IMG/VR virus record: IMGVR_UViG_3300048589_000281
Span: 1-29,612 of that record
From: a virus
Length of the DNA: 29,612 nucleotides
Direction: 5' to 3' (one strand)
Made by a program: the position numbers and the translations under genes. Position 1 is the stretch's first letter. The number at the start of each line of letters is the position of its first letter. Positions 3,426 to 29,612 of the stretch are shown one piece after another. A model generated the notes under the pieces. The model was given only the letters and a program-made list of their open reading frames with translations. It was not told the DNA's origin and did no database searches.

Positions 3426-3453
3426 GGCATCAGTGCCATTTGGCACTGATGCC
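3426..3453. repeat. Dispersed palindrome, copy 2 (compensated variant)
   Basis: Arms read GGCATCAGTGCCA and its exact reverse complement around a TT centre. Compared with the usual arm GGCATGAACGCCA there are three substitutions, each matched on the other arm. It fills the gap between the metallopeptidase gene and the 1122-aa gene and ends two bases before the latter's ribosome binding site. Confidence 0.9.
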
Positions 3454-4838: not shown

Positions 4839-4866
4839 GGCATGAACGCCATTTGGCGTTCATGCC
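4839..4866. repeat. Dispersed palindrome, copy 3
   Basis: Perfect 13-bp arms with a TT centre on the plus strand. It sits between the stop codon of the Met/Pro-rich gene (seven bases away) and the start of the metallopeptidase gene. Confidence 0.95.
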
Positions 4867-7340: not shown

Positions 7341-7368
7341 GGCATGAACGCCATTTGGCGTTTATGCC
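7341..7368. repeat. Dispersed palindrome, copy 4 (first of a close pair)
   Basis: TT centre on the plus strand. The right arm has one T-for-C change (TTTATGCC), which is a G-T wobble on the plus strand and an A-C mismatch on the minus strand. It lies 19 bp upstream of the Pro/Ala-rich gene's start. The flanking TCACAAGC is shared with the copy at 26238. Confidence 0.95.
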
Positions 7369-7384
7369 TCACAAGCGGGCCAAG

Positions 7385-7412
7385 GGCATGAACGCCAAAT
7401 GGCGTTCATGCC
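7385..7412. repeat. Dispersed palindrome, copy 5 (second of a close pair)
   Basis: Perfect arms with an AA centre on the plus strand, so it faces opposite to copy 4, 16 bp away. It ends two bases before the stop codon of the coiled-coil gene. Confidence 0.95.
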
Positions 7413-8704: not shown

Positions 8705-10453
8705 TCATGACGGCGGAAACCGATTCGACATGGGGTAGGCGCGGCTGGGGTCGTCCAGCTCCGTGGCGTGCCTGGGGTCGTGGTCGCGGTTGGGCAGGCC
8801 CGTGGGTGGCTGGTTGGCCAGATTGAAGTGGCCCACGATCAGCGCGTGAAGCGACCCGCTCGACACCGTGTCGGTGGTGCCGCCGATCTCGAACCCGAGT
8901 TCGTCCAGCTTGTGCCGGGTGATCATGGTTTCAAAGTACGCCCTGGTCTTTGGCTCGATCTGACTCAGGTGGTGCTTCATGGCGGCGAACCGCTCGGCGA
9001 GCCTGACGTTGTACTTGACCGCGTTGTCGGCGTCCGACTTGGCCGGGTCGGGCTCGTACCAGTCGTTGGGCGGCTCGCGGAAGTAGATGTTGTACGGGTG
9101 CGTCTCACCGCTCCACGTGGGCGAGTAGATGTCCTGGGCCGACTGAGCGCCGCCCTCGATCAGGCGGTCGAGCGTGGCCTGGAAGTGGTACGACTCGACC
9201 CAATCCTGATCGTCGTACTTGAGGTCATGGCGCGGGAACCGCGATGTCTCGCCGCCCGTGTTCAGGAAGCTCGGCTCGCCGGGGAACGCGAACCGGGCCG
9301 CGATCGGATGGATCACCGTGCGGTAGCCGTGGAAGCACTTGTGGCCCTCGCGGAGCTTGGCGAGCTTGCCGCGTGGGAAGCCGTACTGGTCCACCATTTC
9401 GATAGTCTCGCTGGTGTCGCCCATCCAGCCCGACCAGCTTGGTTCGTCCCACGGGCCTTCGCCAATCTTGGGGCAGTTCACCGACGTGCGCCCCGACTCC
9501 CAGGTCGCGGGGGACCAGATCGACTCGTTCAGGTCGTGGCCGATCATCGGCCCCCAGCAGAAATCGTGCATCAGCGCTTCGGCCGTGGTCCTGGGCGGTG
9601 CGTATTCGTAGCCGGTCGCGGGCATGCCCATGTAGACGTGCAGGAAATCGGTGCCCGCGAAGTGGTCGCAATGACCGCTGCCGCCGTAAGCGTCAGGCCC
9701 CAACATCCAGAGCGGGCCACGCGCCGCGTGGATCGGCTTGTTCGCGTCGTCGAGCGGGTTGAACACCACCTCGCCCCGGATCGGCTCGTAGGTCGCGCGG
9801 GTGATGTCGGCGGGGATGAACTGGCAGATTTGGACCCACACGAGCCCAGCGTAGGCCGTCTCGATGTCACGCTTGACCTGCTTGCACGCGGCGATCAGGC
9901 GGTCATACTCGGCGCGGATCGGGTTGTCGATCACGGCCCGCTTGCGGTACTTGCGTGGCCCCTCAACCTCGCCAATCTCGCGCTTGTGTTCGGGGTGCCA
10001 GCCGATCAGTTGGTGGCTGACGCCGAAGTGGGGGTCGGCCAGCCAGTCGATCAGCGAGTAGCCGCCGCCGTGGGAGAACATCAGCGACCCCTCGCTGTTC
10101 TCGCTTGTAATTCCTTGCCACGCCGCTGGCACGTCGTGGTGCCCGTACAGGCCCATGTCGCTGAACCGCGACACGAGCGTGAAGTTGTCGCAGTATAAGC
10201 GCGGCGGGACCAGCACCGACAGGAACACGACCATCGGCGGGCGGCAGAGCTGGCCCGCCTCGGGCCACCGCGTGGGCACGTCATGAAGCTGGTTCGGCGA
10301 GATCAGGCCCGACGCCTGGCCGGGCATGAACATCGCGGGCATCTTGCCGTCGAAGTAGCTCTCACGCACCGGGACCAGGCGATCACGGTTGTACGAACCG
10401 TGCGTGCCCTTGATCGTGAACGGATGGCCGGGCTGGTTGTGGGCGTTGCTCAT
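8705..10453 (-). CDS. Unrecognised virion protein, 582 aa
   Basis: A protein of 582 residues, starting in an ATGA overlap with the stop of the preceding gene, which implies coupled translation. It is rich in Trp, His, Tyr and Pro, unlike the Ala/Gly-rich neighbours, and looks like a compact globular protein: a beta-rich N-terminal 100 residues with RLVPVRESYF and PPMVVFLSVLVPPRLY, a helix around 175-200 (RAEYDRLIAACKQVKRDIE), and a helical C-terminal quarter. I could not place it in a family. Being large, globular and in the structural block, it is one of few candidates here for an abundant capsid or tail protein, but nothing in the sequence proves that. Confidence 0.6.
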   Translation of the reverse strand: MSNAHNQPGHPFTIKGTHGSYNRDRLVPVRESYFDGKMPAMFMPGQASGLISPNQLHDVPTRWPEAGQLCRPPMVVFLSVLVPPRLYCDNFTLVSRFSDMGLYGHHDVPAAWQGITSENSEGSLMFSHGGGYSLIDWLADPHFGVSHQLIGWHPEHKREIGEVEGPRKYRKRAVIDNPIRAEYDRLIAACKQVKRDIETAYAGLVWVQICQFIPADITRATYEPIRGEVVFNPLDDANKPIHAARGPLWMLGPDAYGGSGHCDHFAGTDFLHVYMGMPATGYEYAPPRTTAEALMHDFCWGPMIGHDLNESIWSPATWESGRTSVNCPKIGEGPWDEPSWSGWMGDTSETIEMVDQYGFPRGKLAKLREGHKCFHGYRTVIHPIAARFAFPGEPSFLNTGGETSRFPRHDLKYDDQDWVESYHFQATLDRLIEGGAQSAQDIYSPTWSGETHPYNIYFREPPNDWYEPDPAKSDADNAVKYNVRLAERFAAMKHHLSQIEPKTRAYFETMITRHKLDELGFEIGGTTDTVSSGSLHALIVGHFNLANQPPTGLPNRDHDPRHATELDDPSRAYPMSNRFPPS

Positions 10454-11535
10454 GTCGGCTCACCCTCGACGGGGCCTTGGCACCAAACCGGGGGCTGCGC
10501 GAAGTACAGGTCTTCGGGGTTGTCCGGGTCGGACGATGGATAAGTGACGATCCCCCAGACCCACATGCCCTTGACCAGTGAGTCATCGGGATGAAGTTGC
10601 GGCACGTGGAGCATGACCGGCTCGTCAGCGGGCGCACCCATCGGGCCGCTCGGGTACAGAACAATCGGCGTCTCGCGACCGTTCGTGCCGTCCTGGGTTG
10701 GCCCGGCCACTACGCCGCACAACGTGGTGGTGCCGCTGCCGCCGCCCGATGGCCAGATGAACGGCAACCGCAGCTCGGGGAGCATCCGCAGGAACGCGGC
10801 CAGCACGTCGGTGATGATCGTGTCGTGGTCGTTGGTGCCGGTGCTGCCCGGTTGGTTCGTCTTGTCGGCGTTGCCCATCCGCAGGCCGGTCGTGCGGTGG
10901 TCCTGGCTTGACGAGAGCACTTCGTCAATCTGGCCGGGCAAGCCGCTGTCTGTGCCAGCGACCGCGTGATGTGGCGTGCTGGGGTAGGTGTATCCCGGTC
11001 GATACGGTTCCTCGGGAGGTGGCGAGTACCCGGCCAGCTCGACATCGGCGGGGCCAATCGGGCGTGGCCTGGGCAAGCCCTGCCAAGGGGCGGGCGGCGG
11101 CGGTGTGGGCCGTCGCGGCATCCGGTGCTGCGCGGTTGTCGGCTCGTCGGGACGCCGTGGCTGGAACGTGGTGATCGGATCGTGAGGACGGCGCGGCGTC
11201 GGCTGGAACGGCGATTCGGTCGGGTCATCGTCTTCACGCCGGGCCGGAAACGTGGCGTCGGCTGGTCGCTGAGGCATGAACGCCATTTGGCGTTCATGCT
11301 CTGTACCCTGGCCTTTCGCCTTGTGGGAAGGCGGTTGCGGCGGTGCCTCCCACGATTCGCGGGCACGAACCTCGCGGTCGCGGGCCTCGGCCAGGCGGCG
11401 GTCGGCGGTGCTGGGCGGGGCGGGCGCTTCCCGCTCACGCTCCAGCTTGGTCCCTTCCAGGATCGCCACCAGCTCCTCGGCCAGCGCGGTCGGGGTGGAC
11501 CATGTTTCGCGGAGCAATCGCCGGATGTCGTTCAT
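10450..11535 (-). CDS. Pro-rich virion protein with an in-frame palindrome copy
   Basis: A protein of 361 residues starting at the ATG of an ATGA overlap with the stop of the 1356-aa gene. An N-terminal helix (1-35) is followed by a charged, Arg/Pro-rich disordered region to about 200, then a C-terminal globular domain (about 225-361) with beta strands such as RLPFIWPSGG, ETPIVLYPSG and LVKGMWVWGIVTYP. Residues 79-88 (EHERQMAFMP) are encoded by a copy of the dispersed palindrome. The frame is open much further upstream, but that part belongs to the neighbouring gene in another frame. No family was recognised. Confidence 0.6.
   Translation of the reverse strand: MNDIRRLLRETWSTPTALAEELVAILEGTKLEREREAPAPPSTADRRLAEARDREVRARESWEAPPQPPSHKAKGQGTEHERQMAFMPQRPADATFPARREDDDPTESPFQPTPRRPHDPITTFQPRRPDEPTTAQHRMPRRPTPPPPAPWQGLPRPRPIGPADVELAGYSPPPEEPYRPGYTYPSTPHHAVAGTDSGLPGQIDEVLSSSQDHRTTGLRMGNADKTNQPGSTGTNDHDTIITDVLAAFLRMLPELRLPFIWPSGGGSGTTTLCGVVAGPTQDGTNGRETPIVLYPSGPMGAPADEPVMLHVPQLHPDDSLVKGMWVWGIVTYPSSDPDNPEDLYFAQPPVWCQGPVEGEPT
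11273..11300. repeat. Dispersed palindrome, copy 6 (inside a gene)
   Basis: Perfect inner arms with a TT centre; only the outermost base is changed (GCT for GCC). It lies in the disordered region of the Pro-rich virion gene, in the reading frame that gives HERQMAFM, one of the two stop-free frames of the element on that strand. Confidence 0.95.
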
Positions 11536-14500
11536 TGCGTGCCACACCCGGACAGGGTGATCTGGAACACGCGGACCAGGGCTTGCCCCTGCACGCCCGC
11601 GAGTTCCACCGAGACGTACCGATCGCCCGATGCGTAGGGGTCGGAGTGGCCGGTGATGCGGTGGATCAGGTGGCCGCGTGGCGAGTCGAGGCGTGCCACC
11701 AGCCGCGACGAATCGGCGGTGATCGACGTGCCGTCCATCTCCCGCGATCGGGACCACGGCATCGGCGTGGGCGAGTGGTCGAGGTACACGAGCGTCGAGA
11801 GCGTCTGCGCGGTGGTGGTGGGCTGGAACACCAGCTCGATGTCGCGCGGGTTCTCGCTCTCATCGGGTGCGTACCGGAACCAGCCCGACCGCCACTGGAA
11901 CGGGATGCCGCCGACCTGAATGATGTCGCCGGGCGCGGGTGGTGGGTTGAAGGGCTCGACCACCTCCAGCGTCGAACTGGTCGAGTCGCAGATCACGCTC
12001 GACTGGCCCGCCGCGCTTCCCGTGACGACACACACAGGGACGCCACCGAGGTCAGGAGGAAGCCCTCCACCAGAAAGGACGAGGTGCGCCCCATCGGCCG
12101 CTGACTCGACCACTCCGGAGGTGACTCCAAGGCCATCGGCGAGGGCGTCCAGACGCCCCTCTCCCAGAACAATGACGCGGCGAGCCGTGGTTCCAGCAAG
12201 GGCACGGCGATGGCCCACGGCCCCAACACAACTGGCAGTAACCGGCTCGGTGTAGCGCTCGACCCACCACCGGCCCGAGCGGTACGAGAACGCGATGGCG
12301 TCGGCGTTGGGCGTGCCGCCTTCGAGGGCGACGAACCAGCGGATGACGCCGCGCACTTGATCGAGGACCGCATGCCACAACCCCCTGTCAGCCGACCAGT
12401 CAATCCGAAGCTCGGAGGACGGGTCGGACTGGAACATGGCCCGCACGGGATCGGACAGGTGCTCGGACGCATCGCCGTCGAAGGCGTGGATGCCCGACTC
12501 ATCGAGCATGTAGGCCACGCCGTCCGCGACCGCGATGCATCGGTGGTTGACGCACCCGCGCCCCGACTTCGGGAACACCATGCCGTCCCGCGCCGGGTCG
12601 GCCTTGAACGTGAGACGGTGAATGGCCCGGCGCTCGACGATGAACAGCGAACTCTTGAGCGCGACCAGGCCGACGATCTCGTCATTGGACTCGGGCACCG
12701 CGAAGGCGTTCCACGACGGCCAGCTCTCGGGCCGGTTCGGCTCCGAGTAGTAGACGAGCCGACGCTCGGCGGGCGCGGGCCGGATGGCGTAGGGGGCGAA
12801 CACCGAGCTTGGCCCGTCGTAGGGCCGGTTGAGCGTGAGGCTGGTGGCACTGGTGACGCTCGCGATCTCGAACGACTGGCCCGCCTCCGTGTGAGTGAAC
12901 AACCGCCCGGCCAGCGACGGCACCCACGCCGTGCCGATGCCATTGACCACGTTGGACCCGAGCGACACCACCGCGTGGCCTTCCGTGACCGCCACCTCGC
13001 CCGCCGCGAAGATGCGGCCCTGATGGGCGCAGATGGCGAGCTTGTGCGACGGCGGCAGGCCGTGATTGGACGCGAGCGGGAACCCATCCTCATCGGCCAG
13101 CGGGATGGGCTCGCGGGTGGACAGGTCGAGGTCGGTGCGGCTGGAGGTGAACGTGGTGGCGGTGAGGTCGGTGGTGTCCACGTCCACGTAGAACGTGCCG
13201 AAGTCACCGTCGAGGTTGCGGAGGATTTGGCGGCGGGCCACCTTGGGGTCGGTGGGAGGTGAAGCGTGATAGGTCAAGCTCGACGCGCCTATGGCCCAGG
13301 TGCCGCCGCCGTGATGTGTGCCTGACGTGGCCACGGCGTCAGAGAGCGTGAACGTGTCGGCCGTGACGGTGCCCACCGTGCGGTCGCCGTCGATCGGCAC
13401 CTCGGGCACGCCGCTGATCAGCACCACGTCGCCAGGCGACAATCCGTGGCCGGGAGACGTGACCGCGACCAGGCCCGCCGTGGTCGTGGTCACGCCCGCG
13501 ATCCAGCCGTCGCGGCCGACCGTGATGAGCACGCCGGGCGGCGACAGGTTCGACGGGTTGCCGCGTGCGTCCAGGAACCGCTGGAACGCCGCGAACTTGC
13601 CCATGATCGGGCCATCGGAGGCATAAACGCCATTTGGCGTTAATGCCTCGGCGGTGATCGTGGCCGGGGTGGTGGGCGCGGCCAGGCCCGCCGCCCATGC
13701 CTGGGAAGCGAGGGCGTCCCAGCCGATCATCGCGCCCACGCCGTTGGCCATGAGCACCGTGCCATCGGGCGACTCGGCGAACGACAGCGGATAGGCCGAC
13801 ACGCCATCCCAGAGCTTCGTCCGCAACCCGTGCCCGGAATCGCCACCGGGCACCACGGCACCACCCGGCAGGGCCACCAGCACGTCCGCACGGCTCGCCA
13901 GCGTGATCGTCGCGGCCCCACCGAGCAATTCCAGGTCTGCGGTCGCCAAGGCCCCCAGCGTGACCTGGGACGCACTCTCCGTCAGGGGCAGGTCATTCGA
14001 CTCGGATGGCCCCGTGAGGCTCATGCTGGTCGTCGCGGCCACGCTGATGACGCGGCCAGCGGCGGCGGTGCCAGCGAGGGCGACCGTGGTCGATGCCGTC
14101 ACGGAACCGACCGAGTGGTCCTGGGCGAGCGACGTGATCTCGACGGTCGTGGCCGCAACCCGGAGGAACGTGCGGGTGGCGTCCACAAGGGGTTCGAGAG
14201 ACAGTTCGACCGTGGAGGTCGCCCACGCTTCGACCGCGAGTTCCAGGCCGATCGTCGGGGCGCGAGGTCGGACCTGGACCCGCGACCGCGCCTCGACGTA
14301 CATGAACGTCTGGACCAGATCGTCCACTTCGCTTTCGGCCGTGACGAGTAGCTCATTGCTCGCGTCCACGAACACGTTGCTCAGCGCGCCGTCGCCGCCG
14401 TCGCTCAGGTTCACGAGGCTCGACGCGGTGCGCGTGAAGTTTTGCGCCACGCCCGCCATCGTGATCACGGGTGCGACCACGACCAACGATGAAGCGCTCT

Positions 14501-15602
14501 TGGCCTTGGCGGTGCCGCTCGCCCCCAGGCCCAGGCTGGTGACGAGCACGCTGCTCGACGCGGAGGCAAGGCGAAGGAACCCAGCGGTCGCGAAACTGGA
14601 CGCGGTCAGGACTGATCGGGCCGTGACCGGCCAGGCCGGGCCGGGGTGGGCGTAAGGCACGAGCGTGAGCGCGGACCCGGCCTCGGACGCGGTAATTCGG
14701 GCCGCGACGGGCGACGACAGCACGACCAGTGACGACTGCGCCTCAAGGCCGATCGCGTTGAGCTTGGTGGTCGTCGCGCTCGACTGCACGGCGATCGTGC
14801 TTGCCGCATCCCTTCTCACGGTGAGCGGGGGCCGGAACGAGAACACGGTGGCCGACGCGGTCGGGAGGGCGACGATCGGGTGATCGGCCCGCGTCGTGGA
14901 CAGGCCATCGAACAGGGGGGCGTACAGCGACGTGAACTCGGCCACGCGGGTCGGGTTGGCACCGCTGGCCAGGGCCGCGACCGACGCCGCGCTGATGACC
15001 TGTTTCGGGTAGATCGCGAACTCGGCGAACCCACCCAGCGCCGTGGGGAGAACACGCCACGGCGCTTCGGCGATCGTGGTGTAGACCGTGGGTTGCCCGA
15101 GCGTGCCAATGAGCTTGACCGAGACATCCGAGCCGAACCCGACAAGCCCCTGGTCTGGGAACGTCGTCGTGCCGATCAGCGACCCGTTCACGTACAGCTT
15201 GATCTGTTTGGCGTCGGCGTCACACGAGAAGGCGACGTGCTGCCAGGCGTCGAGCGAGATCAGGCCCGCCGCACTCGTGACGAGCTTGGGTGACGGACAG
15301 GTGCCGTGAGATTCATCGGCCGAGCCCGAGAGCACGCTCACGCCAGCGGTCAGCGCGAGGCTGCGGTCGGCCGCGAGCGCCAGCTTGGACAGGGTGAACG
15401 AGTAGGCCGCGTTGTAATACGAGAAATCTGAGGTCGAGACGCAATCCAGCAGCGTGCCCGCCGCCGTGGGCTTGATCCACGCCGACGCCGACCAGCTCCA
15501 GTTGCCGGGGCCAGTGAACCACCGTGGGTTGGACCAGCCGGGATGCCCCTTGGCGGGGACCGACCTGTATGCGGAGCCCGTGCTTGTGCGGAGAAAGGCC
15601 AC
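11532..15602 (-). CDS. Giant tail/nozzle-like protein with N-terminal LamG domain
   Basis: A protein of 1356 residues starting at GTG with AAGGAG nine bases upstream, inside the last codons of the preceding gene. Residues about 28-235 form a LamG/concanavalin-like domain (WSWSASAWIKP near the start; DAWQHVAFSCD and KLYVNGSLIGT). Residues about 240-580 are Ser/Thr/Ala/Val-rich beta repeats. The C-terminal part from about 600 has propeller-like strands, including SLFIVERRAIHRLTF, GCVNHRCIAVADGVAYML and GIHAFDG, a pattern seen in podoviral tail nozzle or DNA-stabilisation proteins. Residues near 652-662 come from a palindrome copy. It most likely forms part of the tail and carries a glycan-binding domain for host attachment. 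Confidence 0.65.
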   Translation of the reverse strand: MAFLRTSTGSAYRSVPAKGHPGWSNPRWFTGPGNWSWSASAWIKPTAAGTLLDCVSTSDFSYYNAAYSFTLSKLALAADRSLALTAGVSVLSGSADESHGTCPSPKLVTSAAGLISLDAWQHVAFSCDADAKQIKLYVNGSLIGTTTFPDQGLVGFGSDVSVKLIGTLGQPTVYTTIAEAPWRVLPTALGGFAEFAIYPKQVISAASVAALASGANPTRVAEFTSLYAPLFDGLSTTRADHPIVALPTASATVFSFRPPLTVRRDAASTIAVQSSATTTKLNAIGLEAQSSLVVLSSPVAARITASEAGSALTLVPYAHPGPAWPVTARSVLTASSFATAGFLRLASASSSVLVTSLGLGASGTAKAKSASSLVVVAPVITMAGVAQNFTRTASSLVNLSDGGDGALSNVFVDASNELLVTAESEVDDLVQTFMYVEARSRVQVRPRAPTIGLELAVEAWATSTVELSLEPLVDATRTFLRVAATTVEITSLAQDHSVGSVTASTTVALAGTAAAGRVISVAATTSMSLTGPSESNDLPLTESASQVTLGALATADLELLGGAATITLASRADVLVALPGGAVVPGGDSGHGLRTKLWDGVSAYPLSFAESPDGTVLMANGVGAMIGWDALASQAWAAGLAAPTTPATITAEALTPNGVYASDGPIMGKFAAFQRFLDARGNPSNLSPPGVLITVGRDGWIAGVTTTTAGLVAVTSPGHGLSPGDVVLISGVPEVPIDGDRTVGTVTADTFTLSDAVATSGTHHGGGTWAIGASSLTYHASPPTDPKVARRQILRNLDGDFGTFYVDVDTTDLTATTFTSSRTDLDLSTREPIPLADEDGFPLASNHGLPPSHKLAICAHQGRIFAAGEVAVTEGHAVVSLGSNVVNGIGTAWVPSLAGRLFTHTEAGQSFEIASVTSATSLTLNRPYDGPSSVFAPYAIRPAPAERRLVYYSEPNRPESWPSWNAFAVPESNDEIVGLVALKSSLFIVERRAIHRLTFKADPARDGMVFPKSGRGCVNHRCIAVADGVAYMLDESGIHAFDGDASEHLSDPVRAMFQSDPSSELRIDWSADRGLWHAVLDQVRGVIRWFVALEGGTPNADAIAFSYRSGRWWVERYTEPVTASCVGAVGHRRALAGTTARRVIVLGEGRLDALADGLGVTSGVVESAADGAHLVLSGGGLPPDLGGVPVCVVTGSAAGQSSVICDSTSSTLEVVEPFNPPPAPGDIIQVGGIPFQWRSGWFRYAPDESENPRDIELVFQPTTTAQTLSTLVYLDHSPTPMPWSRSREMDGTSITADSSRLVARLDSPRGHLIHRITGHSDPYASGDRYVSVELAGVQGQALVRVFQITLSGCGTQ
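13620..13647. repeat. Dispersed palindrome, copy 7 (inside a gene, stop codon removed)
   Basis: Arms GGCATAAACGCCA and TGGCGTTAATGCC around a TT centre, with one mismatch between arms. In the host gene's frame (minus strand) it reads GCA TTA ACG CCA AAT GGC GTT TAT GCC. The consensus would give GCA TGA ACG, a stop. The substitution that breaks the symmetry is the one that keeps the frame open. Confidence 0.95.
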
Positions 15603-16085: not shown

Positions 16086-16101
16086 TGCCGTGACTCCTGG
16101 A

Positions 16102-16129
16102 GGCATGAACGCCAAATGGCGTTCATGCC
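16102..16129. repeat. Dispersed palindrome, copy 8 (best-preserved, 15-bp arms)
   Basis: Symmetry extends to GAGGC...GCCTC (16100-16131), giving 15-bp perfect arms with an AA centre. On the minus strand it is followed directly by TCCAGGAG, the ribosome binding site of the beta-sandwich gene. Confidence 0.95.
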
Positions 16130-16141
16130 TCTGGCCTGGTT

Positions 16142-18115: not shown

Positions 18116-18143
18116 GGCATAAACGCCAAATGGCGTTCATGCC
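18116..18143. repeat. Dispersed palindrome, copy 9
   Basis: AA centre on the plus strand; the left arm has A for G (GGCATAAACGCCA), the right arm is consensus. It lies between the stop of the 188-aa gene and the predicted terminator. Confidence 0.95.
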
Positions 18144-21210: not shown

Positions 21211-21238
21211 GGCATGAACGCCATTTGGCGTTCATGCC
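21211..21238. repeat. Dispersed palindrome, copy 10
   Basis: Perfect arms with a TT centre on the plus strand. It lies six bases beyond the portal stop codon and 25 bases upstream of the next start. Confidence 0.95.
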
Positions 21239-21244
21239 CTCGGG

Positions 21245-23194
21245 TCACATCGGGGCACCGTCTCCGGGCTGGTTCTGCGACCCCTTGCCATCGGCAACCT
21301 CCTCGCCGGGGGCGACCGGCGCGGGCGGCGGCGGGATGGCGGCACGCAGCAGGTAGCGGCCGGGGTCGAGCGACCGGCTCTTGGCCATGTCGCTGATCAG
21401 GTTGTTCAGCGGCTCGATGTCGCCCGTGGCGGTCGAGTACGCCTGGATCACGGGGCCGATCGCGTTGAACATCTCGGTCATGGTCTGGCTCTCCCATTGC
21501 TTGTTCGGGCGCTGGGTGGAGCCGCTCTCGACCGAATACTCAAGCTGACGCGCGGCCATCACATAGTCGGTGGTGGCGACGAACTGGTCCCACGCCCACG
21601 AGCCCATCGAGCCAAGCAGGACCGCCACGTCAGCCCCGGTCAGGTGGTGCCGCGCGGCGAGCGCTTCCTTGGCGGCGACCTCGCTCATCCACGCCTCGAC
21701 CTGGCCCGCCATGTCGTCGGGGCGAATGCTCATGTTCTGATTGCGGAGACTCACCTCGGCGGCGCTGCGGATCTGCGTCGAGCCGCCCTGGCCGTACATC
21801 AGCTCGGTGAGGCCCACCCGCTTGTCGAAGTTGTTCTCGACCGCCTCGATCATGCGCCACACGTCGCCGTTGACCTCCGGGTGCTGGAGGAACTGCACCA
21901 GCTCCGAGATCGTGCCGTGCTCGGACTCCAGTTCCAGGAGCGACAGGTCGCGGCCTTCGAGGATGGTCGTCTTGATGTCTTCACCGAGTGACTTCTTCAG
22001 GGCGATGAAGTCGCGGCATGAGGTGCGGATGCGCCCCATCAGGAAGCTCATCACCCAATTCAGGAACTTCAACTCGCCCAGGCCCGCCTTCAGGTGCGGC
22101 ATCGGCCACGGGCAGTTGTGGACCTCGTGGAAGTCGAGCAGCGTGACCGGCCAGCCGTCGTCGGCCCAATACGGCGTCGGCCACGCCACCGACTGGAACA
22201 CGCGGGCCGGGTCGGACTGGAACGACGGATCGTTGGTCAGGTCGGGCGACAGGTTCAGCGGGAACGGATTGTCGGGTGACACCACCAGGAAGCAGTAGTC
22301 GCCGAACGGTTCGAGCGCGGCGCGGATGGACGGCCGCATGCCCGACAGGCGACCGCCCAGGCCCATCTTCGACCACACCTGATAGATGGTGATCAGGTCG
22401 TTGGTGTAGCCACGCTTGCGGTCGTACTGCACGTCCGAGGACACGTCGGCCATCGCCTGGATGCCCTGGCTCTCGCTGTTGCCCTTGAGACTGCCACGGC
22501 GCAGGTTGTAATCGCGCTCCACCTGCCAGACCGGGAGCACGCGGCGGCGGGCGATCCAGGCGGCGCGGGCGATGCTCGTGGCGTCCGGGTCCACCAGCAG
22601 ATCATCGACCGATTCCCAGCACGTGCGCACCGCCTTGAAGCTCGCGGCGGGCGGCGTGTACAGCTCGGTCCAGAGACACCCCCTGCCCTTGATCAGCGCC
22701 TCGTTGATCGCGGTCCTGGCCTCCTGGCTCAGGCCGAACTCGTTCGGCGTCCAGTTGAGGTAGCCCTCCAGCAAGACGCCACGGAGCCCGTCCGTGCGGA
22801 CGCGGGCGTCCTCCTGCATGATCATCGACTGATACGTGTACGGGTCGGGGAAGAACTCGGGTGGTATCTGGATGGGCATGCGCGGTCGCACGGTGCGCAC
22901 GGGGTTGGCGTGGTACATCGCCGGGCCGAAGATCGTGACGAACTCAAATGCCTTGTTGACCGACACCTTGAAGTCGGGCATCGGGAACCCGTCGCCGTCG
23001 CCCATCCCGGCGAGCGAGCCCATCAGTTCATCCCAATCGCGTGGCCCAGCGTAGAACTGGTTGCACTCGGCCGCAGCCGCCGTGAACACGCGCTCCTTGT
23101 GCTTCTTGGCCTGCTCAATGGCTGAGGCCCACTGACCGACGACGGCCCGCAGGACCGGGTCGATCTCGGACGGCGCGTAGTTTTCGACGGCCAC
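21245..23194 (-). CDS. Portal protein (podovirus type)
   Basis: A protein of 649 residues starting at GTG with AGGGAG eight bases upstream. It carries the features of a large phage portal: an N-terminal helical part (VLRAVVGQWASAIEQAKKH), the FKVSVNKAFEFVTIFGPAMY segment, a central region reporting on neighbours (DDLLVDPDATSIARAAWIARRR), the long helical stem (FLNWVMSFLMGRIRTSCRD), and the GLTELMYGQGGSTQIRSAAE stretch followed by a helical crown. A Pro-rich tail (RAAIPPPPAPVAPGEE) ends the protein. It forms the dodecameric ring through which the terminase packages DNA. Its order after the terminase is the usual one. Confidence 0.8.
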   Translation of the reverse strand: MAVENYAPSEIDPVLRAVVGQWASAIEQAKKHKERVFTAAAAECNQFYAGPRDWDELMGSLAGMGDGDGFPMPDFKVSVNKAFEFVTIFGPAMYHANPVRTVRPRMPIQIPPEFFPDPYTYQSMIMQEDARVRTDGLRGVLLEGYLNWTPNEFGLSQEARTAINEALIKGRGCLWTELYTPPAASFKAVRTCWESVDDLLVDPDATSIARAAWIARRRVLPVWQVERDYNLRRGSLKGNSESQGIQAMADVSSDVQYDRKRGYTNDLITIYQVWSKMGLGGRLSGMRPSIRAALEPFGDYCFLVVSPDNPFPLNLSPDLTNDPSFQSDPARVFQSVAWPTPYWADDGWPVTLLDFHEVHNCPWPMPHLKAGLGELKFLNWVMSFLMGRIRTSCRDFIALKKSLGEDIKTTILEGRDLSLLELESEHGTISELVQFLQHPEVNGDVWRMIEAVENNFDKRVGLTELMYGQGGSTQIRSAAEVSLRNQNMSIRPDDMAGQVEAWMSEVAAKEALAARHHLTGADVAVLLGSMGSWAWDQFVATTDYVMAARQLEYSVESGSTQRPNKQWESQTMTEMFNAIGPVIQAYSTATGDIEPLNNLISDMAKSRSLDPGRYLLRAAIPPPPAPVAPGEEVADGKGSQNQPGDGAPM

Positions 23195-23210
23195 GGCTGA
23201 GTCTCCCTGT

Positions 23211-23555
23211 TCAGGGTTGCTCCTCAGCGGTGAGCCCGAACGCCTGTTCGAGCTGGCTGAGTCGCTTCTGGTCGCTCGTGTAGTCCCAGCACCCGGCCTC
23301 ACCGGACGCGACGGTTCGGTTCAGGTCCGGGTCGCTGGCGTGCCGCACGCCGTCCTTGATGAACCCACCCCGCGTGTCAGCGGCGAACACGGTGAGGTTG
23401 AGCGTGCGCTTGCCGACCTGCGTGATCAGGGCTGGCGACGGCTCGCCGTAGGGCGTTGGCATCCACACGCAGGGGCCGATCGATGCGTGCGGCATCTCGT
23501 AGGAGATGTCAGGGGCGGTTGGCTTGGCTTCCGATTTTGGCACCTGTGGCTCCAT
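23211..23555 (-). CDS. SH3-like small conserved phage protein
   Basis: A protein of 114 residues from ATG. The segment from CVWMPTPYGEPSPALITQVG through LNLTVFAADTRGGF to GCWDYTSDQK matches a small family often found beside portal genes, in which a short beta barrel ends in a Trp-containing strand. The C-terminal 20 residues form a helix (KRLSQLEQAFGLTAEEQ). No good ribosome binding site precedes this ATG, and it overlaps the small membrane-protein gene by 47 bases, so translation is probably coupled. A longer form from TTG at 23606 is possible. Confidence 0.55.
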   Translation of the reverse strand: MEPQVPKSEAKPTAPDISYEMPHASIGPCVWMPTPYGEPSPALITQVGKRTLNLTVFAADTRGGFIKDGVRHASDPDLNRTVASGEAGCWDYTSDQKRLSQLEQAFGLTAEEQP

Positions 23556-23742
23556 TGGGCGGGTAGTAGGGATAGGACGGCGTCGGCTGACGCCGCTCGG
23601 GGACAACAGGCTCGACCTGGGCCTTCTGGGATTGGCCCACGATCGCGGCCACGACGAAGATCATGATGGCGGCGAACATCGCCCCGATGAGCACGCCCGC
23701 GAACAGGCTGACGACGTTCATCTGCGACTCATCGCTGGTCAT
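23509..23742 (-). CDS. Small single-helix membrane protein
   Basis: A protein of 77 residues. A short polar N-terminus is followed by one strongly hydrophobic helix (about residues 11-36, SLFAGVLIGAMFAAIMIFVV) and a polar Pro/Gln-rich tail. The start ATG has AGGAGG six to eight bases upstream, immediately after a palindrome copy. It lies between terminase and portal. The shape is compatible with a holin- or spanin-like lysis protein or a virion membrane protein, but no endolysin is visible nearby to support a lysis role. Confidence 0.6.
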   Translation of the reverse strand: MTSDESQMNVVSLFAGVLIGAMFAAIMIFVVAAIVGQSQKAQVEPVVPERRQPTPSYPYYPPNGATGAKIGSQANRP

Positions 23743-23757
23743 TGCACACCTCCTGGA

Positions 23758-23785
23758 GGCATGAACGCCAAATGGCGTTTATGCT
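23758..23785. repeat. Dispersed palindrome, copy 11
   Basis: AA centre on the plus strand; the right arm has the TTTATG variant. It abuts the terminase stop codon on one side and, on the minus strand, runs straight into TCCAGGAG, the ribosome binding site of the small membrane-protein gene. Confidence 0.95.
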
Positions 23786-25776
23786 CAGTAGAGCTGGATC
23801 GAACCCCCAACAGGGGACTGGTTCGCGGCCTTCTTCTTCTTGCTCTTGATGTAAGCCGCCGCCCCAACTTCTTTGCGCTTCCTAGGGCGCGGCTTCATGT
23901 ACCGCAAGTTCGCGATTGCAAGATAGCGCCAGGCATCCATCAAATGGTCGTTATGCTTTAATGGTTCGTCCGTGACCACCTGGCCGCGCGTGCCCTTCTT
24001 GTAGACATAGCGCTCGGCCTCCCACATCAGGTTCGGCAGCTTCTCCCACATGAACCCGAACCGTGATCGGCCGTCGCCATCGACGTGCATGGCCTTGCGC
24101 ACCGCCTCGATCCCGGCCTTGACATCGTCGTCGCCCCAGACGAAGCCAGGCCGCGAGAACTTCACGCCCGCCGCCACGAGCGCCTCGCGGTACTGCTCCT
24201 CGATCGTGCGCCCCGATCCCATCTCGGTGATGCGCCCCGCGTGATGGTCGATCCAGCACGCATAGACCTCGCGGTCGCCCATCTTGCCCTTGAACTTCTC
24301 CGCGAACAGCATGGCCGAGCACCGCTTGATGTACAGCTCATCGAACACGATCACGCGGCCCGCCCACTCATGCGACGGCGGCGGCAGCGCGGCGAACAGC
24401 ACGCCGCACACTTGACGGCCAGGGTCCACGGAAGCGACCACGCACCAGTCGTCGGGGATGGGCACCATCAAGGGAACGCGGTGCGCGCCCTTGGGGCTGA
24501 ACTCGGGATAGATCCGCATGCCCACCAGCGCGAACTCGCCGAGCACGCGGATGCGGTACTCGTCCTCGTTGGTGGCCACCTGCTTGATGAAGACCTGCTT
24601 CGATTCCTCGGACAACCGCGAGTTGTTCAAGAGTGAGACGAAGAACTCCTCGATCGCCGGGTTGGCGTCAGCCGCGCATTCGGCGGCGGCCTGGCTCAGG
24701 TCGTAGAGTTGCTGCGTGCCCACCTGTGGCGTTGCGCCCCAGATGAACTTGCCGCCGATCTGCTTGCCCGTGGTGGCGTCGATGCGGCGGCGGTCCACGA
24801 GACGGGCGCTCATCTCGGGATACCAGGCCGGGTGCTCGATTTCCTCATCGAACCAGATGAAGTCCACGTCCCACCCCTGTGGGGGCGCGCCGAGCGACGA
24901 GAAGAACGTGATCTCCCATCCGGTCTTGAGCCGCACCGTCTTGGGGATCTCCTCCCGCTTGTTCTCCCACGAGATGTCCTTCGCGGAGTAGAACCGCCGT
25001 GGGATCAGGGGCGGCGCTGGCTTGGCGAGGTGCTCGCGGCCCGCGTCCAGGATCGGGTCGAAGGCCCGTAGCTCGCCCGTCTCGGTGTCGATGATGACCT
25101 GGAACGCGCCAGGCTTGAACAGCTTGCGGTACATGACCTTCGAGCAATGCAGAAGGTCTTTGCCAACCGCGATCGCGCGACCGGCGTCGGTCGGGTACTT
25201 GCCGAACGGGTCTTGGCCGGTGAGTGCGCGGGCGACTTCGGCCGCTGAGGCGAGCGTCTTGCCGCCACGGTTGCCGCCGCGAATGATCCGCTCGGGTGCG
25301 TGGCTTGCATGGAACCGGGCCTGTTCTGGCATCGGCGTGTAGAGCCGCAGCGCCTCGCGGGACCGTCGCACGATCTCAGACAGCACGCCGCGCAGCTCAT
25401 CCGTCTCCATGTCGGTGAGGCGCGTGTCGGGAGGCAGGTCGGGCGTGGTCGGCGGCAGTTCCATCTCGTCGATGGAGGCGTACAGGAGACGCCGTTCGTC
25501 CTCGGCCTCCTGGAGCATGCGCTCCACGTCGGCTTCGGCCCGCTTGATGTCCTGGAAGATGCGCTCTTCGTGCGTAAGCCGGTCGAACGGCGACTTGCGC
25601 GTGGCACGCTCGCGATTGGTGGCGCGCTCTTTCTTGACGGTGGGGTTGGACGACCCGCGCCAGGTCGCGTTGGCCGCGTCGGGCGGCTCGTGCTCACTCG
25701 GGGTGGTCGGGGTCGAACCAGGAGAACTCGTTGTCTGGTTCCTTCGTCGGCCCCCCGGCCCCTTCCTGTGTGCCAT
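23785..25776 (-). CDS. terL: Terminase large subunit
   Basis: A protein of 663 residues, the DNA-packaging motor and nuclease. The ATPase half has Walker A GGNRGGKT (167-174) and Walker B VDFIWFDEE (304-312). The nuclease half has acidic residues in SVDPGR (Asp451), WIDHH (Asp510) and HNDHLMDAWRY (Asp610, Asp614). An N-terminal extension of about 145 residues, Pro/Thr-rich then a charged helix (ERIFQDIKRAEADVERMLQE), is longer than usual and may bind the small subunit. The start chosen is ATG with GAGGGA seven bases upstream; it overlaps the upstream gene by 83 bases. The tail is Lys-rich. Confidence 0.9.
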   Translation of the reverse strand: MAHRKGPGGRRRNQTTSSPGSTPTTPSEHEPPDAANATWRGSSNPTVKKERATNRERATRKSPFDRLTHEERIFQDIKRAEADVERMLQEAEDERRLLYASIDEMELPPTTPDLPPDTRLTDMETDELRGVLSEIVRRSREALRLYTPMPEQARFHASHAPERIIRGGNRGGKTLASAAEVARALTGQDPFGKYPTDAGRAIAVGKDLLHCSKVMYRKLFKPGAFQVIIDTETGELRAFDPILDAGREHLAKPAPPLIPRRFYSAKDISWENKREEIPKTVRLKTGWEITFFSSLGAPPQGWDVDFIWFDEEIEHPAWYPEMSARLVDRRRIDATTGKQIGGKFIWGATPQVGTQQLYDLSQAAAECAADANPAIEEFFVSLLNNSRLSEESKQVFIKQVATNEDEYRIRVLGEFALVGMRIYPEFSPKGAHRVPLMVPIPDDWCVVASVDPGRQVCGVLFAALPPPSHEWAGRVIVFDELYIKRCSAMLFAEKFKGKMGDREVYACWIDHHAGRITEMGSGRTIEEQYREALVAAGVKFSRPGFVWGDDDVKAGIEAVRKAMHVDGDGRSRFGFMWEKLPNLMWEAERYVYKKGTRGQVVTDEPLKHNDHLMDAWRYLAIANLRYMKPRPRKRKEVGAAAYIKSKKKKAANQSPVGGSIQLY

Positions 25777-26176
25777 CACGTGGTCCCTCGATGGCGGGAT
25801 GGAGTTCGTCACCGCGAATCCGGCCCAGGTAGTGCTCCGCGACCGTCGCCAAATCTCCGTCCGACAAGTCCTCGGGGTTCACCGGCCGCACGATGTCGTG
25901 GGTCGTGTTGGTGACGATCAAACGCATCACCATCTCTAGGTTTCTCTGACGCGCGACGGAGCCGTTGGGGGCCTTCGTGTACTCGCGAAAGATGTCCTCC
26001 GCGAGTCGTCTCGGCCCGCCCCAGACATCGAGCAGGTTTTTGGCAAGCTCTCCCGAGTCGATCAACTGGCCACGACCGGCCAGCGTCTTGCGGATCTCGA
26101 ACACCGCTTCGCCCGGCTTGCCGATCGGGAACGGCTCGGCCGCGTCGTCGAGCGGCCTGTGATTGCGGTCAGCCAC
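25694..26176 (-). CDS. Terminase small subunit candidate
   Basis: A protein of 160 residues starting at GTG with AAGGAGG six bases upstream. It is mainly helical (SGELAKNLLDVWGGPRRLAEDIFREYTKAP, then NLEMVMRLIVTNTTHDIV) with an acidic C-terminal tail (EFSWFDPDHPE). It is the first gene of the minus-strand block and overlaps the start of the large terminase, the usual place for the small subunit, which recognises the packaging site. No sequence signature proves it; the call is by position and helical make-up. Confidence 0.5.
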   Translation of the reverse strand: MADRNHRPLDDAAEPFPIGKPGEAVFEIRKTLAGRGQLIDSGELAKNLLDVWGGPRRLAEDIFREYTKAPNGSVARQRNLEMVMRLIVTNTTHDIVRPVNPEDLSDGDLATVAEHYLGRIRGDELHPAIEGPRDGTQEGAGGPTKEPDNEFSWFDPDHPE

Positions 26177-26237: not shown

Positions 26238-26265
26238 AGCATGAACGCCAAATGGCGTTCATGCC
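26238..26265. repeat. Dispersed palindrome, copy 12 (divergent region)
   Basis: AA centre on the plus strand and perfect inner arms (26239-26264). It lies between the divergently transcribed structural and recombination genes, the rightmost copy in the window. The right flank TCACAAGC matches that of copy 4. Confidence 0.95.
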
Positions 26266-28744: not shown

Positions 28745-28790
28745 AGACAGGAAGTTCGCCCATCGTCGCTTGAATTCGCCTGTCCTCAAG
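28740..28790 (+). terminator. Inverted repeat at the end of the primase gene
   Basis: CTTGAAGACAGG and CCTGTCCTCAAG form a 12-base stem with one mismatch around a 27-base loop; the left arm begins in the stop region of the primase gene. There is no T tract after it, so termination would need another factor. It may instead stabilise the mRNA end or mark a junction. Confidence 0.4.
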
Positions 28791-28957
28791 CGGTTGGCAA
28801 GGCCCTTGGGTGACTGATCTTCGTTCATGCCCATTCCATTGACCGGCCCCGGCCCCGGCCGTGTCAGCCTTGACTTCTTCCTTTGAAGATCAACGGCGGG
28901 TGGCCGCGTTGACCCGGACATCGGCGGGATCAGGCTTTCAGAAAAAATCGATCGCAT

Positions 28958-28991
28958 CGGGAGGTCGTACTTGTGGACGACCTCACTCCCG
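28958..28991. other. Hairpin GAGGTCGT/ACGACCTC
   Basis: An 8-bp perfect stem with an 8-base loop, lengthened by CGG/CCG after a 3-base bulge. Role unknown; it stands alone in the gene-poor stretch. Confidence 0.5.
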
Positions 28992-28995
28992 GTCA

Positions 28996-29078
28996 AGATA
29001 ACCCGAAGTGTTCCATACTGTACGTCCTCGTGGGCGTAAAGAAAGACGCCTGAGAGGGCGTCGAAACACTGGTTAGGC
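28996..29078. other. Folded element ending in GTTAGGC, attC-like
   Basis: The element closes with TAACC pairing GGTTA and AGTGTT pairing AACACT. Inside are two small hairpins, ACGTCC-TCGT-GGGCGT (29022-29037) and GACGCC-TGAGAG-GGCGTC (29045-29062). The right end GTTAGGC fits the integron core consensus GTTRRRY. The left end AGATAAC fits the partner consensus RYYYAAC only in part, and natural attC sites usually fold as one hairpin, so the identification is tentative. Confidence 0.3.
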
Positions 29079-29112
29079 GTCCGACCGACTGGCGTTGACA
29101 GTGGAGACCATC

Positions 29113-29556
29113 ATGGACAAGTCCACGCTCGACATCCTCACCGAACGGATAGATCGTCTGGAGCGGCAGAATCGCCGCCTCAGACAAGTCGGCGGCTGCG
29201 TCCTGATCGGCGTCACCGTGCTCGGAGCTGTCGCGGCAAAGCCCGCCGACACGGCGGGAATCGTCCGCGCAGTGCAGCTCTTCCTTGTCCACGAGGATGG
29301 AGGAGAGATCCCTTCGGAGCGGGCCGCCTTGACCACCACCCCGCACGATGGGACGATTCTCGTGCTCCGCCACAAGGGGCCGAACCCCTCTCCTCAGATC
29401 GCCCTGAACGCGGCTCCTGACGATCGATCGTTCATCAGCATTAATGGAGCGGACGGCAAGCTCCGGATCTACCTGGGTCTAGAGCCGGATGGTCAGCCGA
29501 AGCTCCTCCTCCAGGATGAGCACGGGAAGGAGCTTTTCAGGGCTCCGGCGAAGTGA
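29113..29556 (+). CDS. Planctomycete-type coiled-coil, one-helix protein with beta repeats
   Basis: A protein of 147 residues starting at the ATG with GGAG six bases upstream (a TTG 18 bases earlier is less likely). Residues 5-27 form a short coiled coil (TLDILTERIDRLERQNRRLR), residues 28-43 a hydrophobic helix (GGCVLIGVTVLGAVAA), and the rest a series of beta units such as VQLFLVHEDGGEIPSERAAL, KLRIYLGLEPDGQPKLLLQD and EHGKELFRA. This layout is common in planctomycete membrane-anchored proteins of unknown function, and the gene is therefore probably host or cargo rather than phage structural. It is bracketed by GGTTAGGCG (29071) and its reverse complement (29587). Confidence 0.65.
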   Translation: MDKSTLDILTERIDRLERQNRRLRQVGGCVLIGVTVLGAVAAKPADTAGIVRAVQLFLVHEDGGEIPSERAALTTTPHDGTILVLRHKGPNPSPQIALNAAPDDRSFISINGADGKLRIYLGLEPDGQPKLLLQDEHGKELFRAPAK

Positions 29557-29586
29557 GGTCGTGGAAGCTTCTGTCGGCGAACGTCG

Positions 29587-29595
29587 CGCCTAACC
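29587..29595. repeat. CGCCTAACC, inverted partner of 29071-29079
   Basis: A nine-base inverted match to GGTTAGGCG upstream of the last gene. The GCCTAAC within it fits the left-end consensus of an integron attC site (RYYYAAC), 32 bases after the stop codon. The window ends 17 bases later, so the rest cannot be examined. Confidence 0.35.
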
Positions 29596-29612
29596 TCTCT
29601 CATGACCTCCCC

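Follow-up and report, generated by a model that had tools for sequence, protein, structure and literature searches.

REP elements are palindromes of 20–40 bp that occur in many copies, mostly between genes and in some cases inside them (PMC3733652). Rickettsia palindromic elements (RPEs) are palindromic repeats that occur both between genes and, keeping the reading frame, within protein-coding genes; many are conserved phylogenetically (PMC2229807). The stoperators of the Cluster A mycobacteriophages (L5, Bxb1) are numerous and scattered over the phage genome, for the most part in short intergenic regions (PMC9262239). We analyzed a dispersed palindrome in a phage known from metagenome data alone, represented by an IMG/VR virus record of 29,612 nt that is a fragment (the window, 29.6 kb). 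One copy of this palindrome lies in frame inside the gene for a tail-nozzle protein.

The window, with a GC content of 67.6%, contains eleven copies of the 28-base palindrome, about one per 2.5 kb. The palindrome is built of 12-bp arms around an AAAT or ATTT centre; its central dinucleotide is AA or TT without exception, and both orientations occur. Ten copies match the consensus GGCATGAACGCCA[AA/TT]TGGCGTTCATGCC with three or fewer mismatches (0.00 expected, 100 shuffles), and no isolated half-site resembling the consensus was found within the window. With genes other than the nozzle gene called by a simple codon-usage gene finder written for this analysis, nine of the eleven copies are extragenic in a stretch of which just 6% is intergenic (P = 8 × 10−10). 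Most copies follow a gene's stop codon and precede the ribosome-binding site of the next gene, the junction copies falling mostly 0–16 nt past a stop and often 16–25 nt ahead of a start.

Gene junctions hold the copies at 3426–3453, 4839–4866, 7341–7368, 7385–7412, 16102–16129 (perfect over 16100–16131 and 16 nt ahead of the next start), 18116–18143 and 21211–21238. The copy at 23758–23785 lies immediately 3' of the stop codon of the terminase gene, and the copy at 26238–26265 lies in a divergent intergenic region. The copies at 7341 and 7385 form a doublet (7341–7412), 44 nt apart at the same junction and opposite in centre orientation, resembling a REP dimer. The arms of the 3426–3453 copy (CAGTGCC/GGCACTG) depart from those of all other copies in three places, each time with a compensating change on the opposite arm (GGCATCAGTGCC...GGCACTGATGCC). 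A 4.6-kb contig from another metagenome record (L010) corresponds to window positions 21545–26156 at 100% identity, the palindrome at 23758 included. Inside genes, one copy (11273–11300) lies in the minus-strand gene at 10450–11535, where it reads as the open frame HERQMAFM in a proline-rich protein region that is unconserved among relatives. The other (13620–13647) lies inside the nozzle gene and is the one copy assigned a strand (minus); given the 11273 copy, it is not the sole intragenic one.

The nozzle gene (11532–15602, minus strand) encodes 1356 residues in a single open frame, with an N-terminal laminin-G-like domain and a C-terminal tail-nozzle domain. The N-terminus matches laminin-G (PF13385), and the C-terminal part matches PHROG virion/tail proteins. 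The C-terminal 767 residues were modelled with AlphaFold from an 18-row alignment (mean pLDDT 84, pTM 0.67), and in Foldseek the model matched nozzle or portal-tail chains of cyanophage A4, SU10, T7 gp12, P22 and others (E = 10−14 to 10−7). From the predicted fold, the nozzle identity of the C-terminal domain is well supported, despite whole-chain TM-scores of just 0.2–0.4. The T7 gp12, SU10 and P22 gp10 nozzles have this fold in common with the C-terminal domain of the window protein, which differs from them in its fusion to an N-terminal laminin-G-like domain and in a nine-residue insert. On the minus strand of the window, the gene is part of a structural module of podovirus-like/SU10-like type, comprising terminase, weak portal and SU10-adaptor matches, and nozzle. 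A single window gene encodes both the laminin-G-like domain and the nozzle, which are two adjacent genes in the homologous locus L013 (9020–12265). At the right end of the window (28745–29612), a gap of about 370 nt in which no gene was called precedes a gene (29113–29556) whose product resembles planctomycete proteins; this gene had no relative in the genome contigs searched, which indicated no host, and the segment may be host flank or cargo.

A search with the fragment around the palindrome site gave two homologues, and their alignment in turn gave 19 loci. Each of the 16 homologues spanning the site (about 13 independent lineages, L021–L024 being near-copies of each other) lacks the residues ALTPNGVYA (653–661), and the flanks are conserved on both sides; L025 stops short of the site and is outside the 16. 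In L013, for example, TIAG---------SGNGAIVGT aligns with TITAE[ALTPNGVYA]SDGPIMGK of the window protein. The gap is nine residues in every homologue but L019, where it is eight (one residue more), and deleting the nine codons gives the spacing found in most homologues. Relatives had been predicted to show a gap of 9–11 residues at 652–662, and the inserted residues, which ancestral coding sequence would share with repeat-less homologues, are absent from all of them. Because 16 of 16 homologues are gapped exactly here with conserved flanks, we conclude that the element entered the coding region, as originally proposed. The most parsimonious reading of the aligned sequences is that the insert is the 27 nt GCATTAACGCCAAATGGCGTTTATGCC between GAG and TCC, net in frame; loop indels could shift its ends by one codon. 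A MITE would have terminal inverted repeats and a target-site duplication, for which a net gain of 27 nt would leave no space next to a 32-bp element. In the nozzle model the site, between fragment strands 59–62 and 79–81, is predicted with reduced confidence, as expected if the insert lies in an exposed surface loop.

The palindrome at the nozzle site, GGCATAAACGCCATTTGGCGTTAATGCC, occupies 13620–13647 and extends to GAG...CTC at 13618–13649. On the sense strand of the gene the site reads GAG GCA TTA ACG CCA AAT GGC GTT TAT GCC TCC, matching the consensus at 26 of 28 bases. Translated in the nozzle frame, the consensus would read A*TPNGVHA (GCA TGA), bringing the stop that had been predicted; its other two frames are open. 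Position 6 of the arm is G in 15, A in four and T in one of 20 arms, and the TTA in place of the consensus TGA/TAA is accordingly unique to this copy, as the prediction held. Its further statement that a single change distinguishes the copy is right in that one change removes the stop, but two changes are present, at position 6 of both arms, the second-arm change being CAT to TAT. A sequencing error at the TTA base is unlikely, because such an error would need to have hit the one stop codon in a 4-kb reading frame that is open everywhere else. TTA is rare in the window (3 of 9059 codons), and three of the nine third positions of the insert are G or C, against 88% for window genes (P = 1.8 × 10−4), so the insert looks foreign. 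These atypical codons also argue that it has not been remodelled to the codon usage of the gene and is either young or constrained as DNA. The unique T is consistent with later purging of the stop, but the inserting copy may already have carried TTA, or tolerable inserts alone may have survived; neither a relative with the insert nor an intermediate was found.

A second phage of the same nozzle family, in which the nine residues are absent (L029, part of the 67.5-kb record G017), has about 30 sites of GGTGGTGG[AAAT/ATTT]CCACCACC and close variants, with the window's centre, again in both orientations, and other arms. Extragenic copies, mainly at gene junctions, make up 25 of the 30 (P = 4 × 10−19). 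The outer stems of the G017 copies vary while complementarity is kept (P = 3 × 10−4), as in hairpin-forming elements; in the window they are complementary in only two copies. All five intragenic copies of G017 are in one frame, reading GGGNPPP or GGGNPTP (GGGNPxP) in the sense direction, for which the probability by chance (one particular frame, 5/5) is about 0.004, with two of the five resting on short or low-scoring predicted genes. The two phages are sisters in no bootstrap of the nozzle tree. A pattern search of 2.9 million viral contigs found no G017 palindrome outside G017, and exact and degenerate pattern scans of viral contigs and genomes, where near relatives are perhaps missing, found no other carrier of the window palindrome. 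Blastn of phage records with either palindrome gave weak, chance-level matches only, and no AAAT palindrome families were found in the other relatives examined.

Other palindromes were seen in these records. G017 (L034–L037) has a second dispersed palindrome, CTATTGCGGCGCACCAATAG (CTATTG...CAATAG), in 19 copies and both orientations; several adjoin AAAT palindromes or a ribosome-binding site, and some have outer stems that are variable yet complementary. The more distant L009/G001 (L054–L055) has a 14-bp palindrome, TGCAATYRATTGCA, of the form TGCAAT[CA/TG]ATTGCA, about every 2 kb, both within and between genes; it has a two-base asymmetric centre, weaker evenness of spacing (P = 0.03) and several copies beside TTGAC promoter-like boxes. 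G019 (L050–L053) has five copies of TTGCGCAGGNCCTGCGCAA across 52 kb, some with GTTCA/GAAC words on their flanks. An apparent repeated-gene array at 39.4–49.2 kb of G015 (L068–L069) mostly carries CTCGAAGATC..GATCTTCGAG in shared surrounding sequence; we rejected these palindromes as like elements, since they are mostly intragenic with shared surroundings, as in repeated genes.

The window family is best filed as a dispersed phage palindrome of REP/RPE-like type that lacks GTAG/CGTC tags and for which no RAYT gene was detected. It resembles REPs in size and copy number (eleven copies of 28–32 bp in the window, about 30 copies in G017) and in the mainly extragenic placement found in both phages. 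It differs from them in that the GTAG/CGTC tag is not constant (either word is present in the 8-nt flanks of only two of the eleven window copies), and in the even spacing and constant AAAT/ATTT centre of the window and G017 palindromes. A RAYT (Y1_Tnp) gene, to which GTAG REPs are linked, was not found in the 21 records (possibly fragments). The likeness to RPEs lies in an insert that, by comparison with homologues, entered a conserved protein gene in frame; RPEs, however, are bacterial and 105–146 bp long, whereas the window element is 28–32 bp (net 27 nt), evenly spaced and in a phage. RPEs and intragenic GTAG/CGTC REPs are the closest precedents, yet size and tags do not match, and no matching transposase was found. 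A literature search of incomplete coverage gave no publication describing repeats of this kind in phages.

We consider it likely that the window carries a phage-private, REP/RPE-like family of dispersed palindromes, one copy of which was inserted in frame into the nozzle loop with its stop replaced by TTA. Short palindromes of this family would disperse through the genome in the REP or RPE manner, the copies probably spreading through insertion of a hairpin-forming DNA element. One copy would have entered the nozzle surface loop in frame, adding ALTPNGVYA, and would persist there because the loop tolerates nine residues and the in-frame TGA/TAA is TTA, the stop having presumably been lost by selection. 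The nozzle site shows insertion of a copied, hairpin-forming palindrome, and for the remaining copies we infer it. No Y1/RAYT transposase was found in the 21 records, which may be fragments; a host enzyme could act in trans. Nor was a close relative found whose gene junctions show an occupied or an empty site.

The spacing of the copies bears on this reading. Counting the doublet once, the window sites are evenly spaced (cv 0.27; P = 10−4 versus uniform placement and P < 10−5 versus random gene junctions), and counting it as two sites P is 0.005. The 30 sites of G017 are likewise even (P = 5 × 10−5 under both nulls); all of these evenness tests were post hoc. Mobile DNA alone does not predict even spacing, which counts against purely random insertion and suggests that the copies may also serve as sites for a DNA-binding protein.

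Chiefly because the spacing is even in two lineages, we keep a site-based function as a strong rival, with a chance of being correct that falls somewhat short of even. The palindromes would then be binding sites of a phage DNA-binding protein, either elongation-blocking operators like the stoperators of mycobacteriophage L5 or partition/condensation sites, needed every ~2–2.5 kb, and a site would have been selected into the 4-kb nozzle gene, which offers no junction. The two evenly spaced phages are not sisters, and without copy 13620 the window would have a gap of 4.8 kb, its largest. The palindrome sequence is private to each phage, like immunity-specific sites, the divergent region holds a copy in both phages, and centre orientation is independent of transcription. 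The 14-bp sites of L009/G001, every ~2 kb and in several cases by TTGAC boxes, also favor such a function. The window sites resemble stoperators in being spread over a phage genome, most of them in short gaps between genes; stoperators, however, are asymmetric 13–14 bp sites in one orientation to transcription (PMC9262239), whereas the palindromes span 20–28 bp (28 bp in the window, with both centre orientations). Stoperators act through the phage repressor, on whose binding their transcription stop depends. Against a binding site, too, no repressor was identified here, the complementary outer stems of G017 are unnecessary for binding, and the ParB-like gene of G017 is also present in two phages without such a palindrome. 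The mobile-element and site readings are compatible, in that a palindrome that spreads may be retained wherever it is useful as a site. More speculatively, some phages of this nozzle family may have genome-wide, evenly spaced (~2–2.5 kb), private AAAT/ATTT sites read by a cognate phage protein, the need for spacing having driven sites into virion genes that lack nearby junctions.

It appears unlikely that the palindromes play the part of RNA hairpins at gene junctions, whether for termination, RNase cleavage or mRNA stabilisation, with the intragenic copies as by-products. Folded as RNA, four window copies form strong predicted hairpins of −28 to −32 kcal/mol (z about −5), and both the frequent placement shortly past a stop and ahead of a start and the complementary outer stems of G017 would suit this role. 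RNA-only roles are nevertheless less likely because the orientation of the AAAT/ATTT loop does not track transcription and because at 7341 and 23758 only one of the two arms has changed, which on the transcribed strand leaves A-C mismatches instead of wobble pairs; in addition, no U-tract was seen at the window copies. Rfam gave no match.

We regard a function as serine-recombinase crossover sites, with palindromic arms around a non-palindromic AA/TT as in hix/gix, as very improbable. The AA or TT centre in both orientations in both phages fits such sites, and G017 encodes a serine recombinase, but the window's 29.6 kb encodes none, eight other records have the enzyme and those examined lack such palindromes, and homologous structural genes persist across the sites in relatives, where inversions would probably be harmful. 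Serine recombinase and ParB-like genes were rejected as partners, their distribution not tracking the palindromes.

That the palindrome marks the old boundary of two genes fused on loss of a stop, as the position of junction copies after a stop, an in-frame ATG shortly downstream and the separate LamG and nozzle genes of L013 might suggest, has hardly any probability left and was rejected, since in homologues the nozzle protein continues through the site without a break and the gene boundary in L013 is ~50 residues upstream of it. A chance match or ancestral coding sequence, the least probable reading, is refuted by 26 matching bases of 28 where no match is expected and by the nine residues missing from all homologues.

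In-frame palindromic insertions were known already in conserved proteins of Rickettsia and of some REP-rich bacteria. The nozzle insertion, a clear-cut case in a virion protein of a phage for which 16 homologues have the empty site, extends the phenomenon to bacterial viruses. The recurrence in a second lineage of another palindrome with an identical centre and even spacing makes it testable whether such elements are selfish hairpins or phage-specific regulatory sites.
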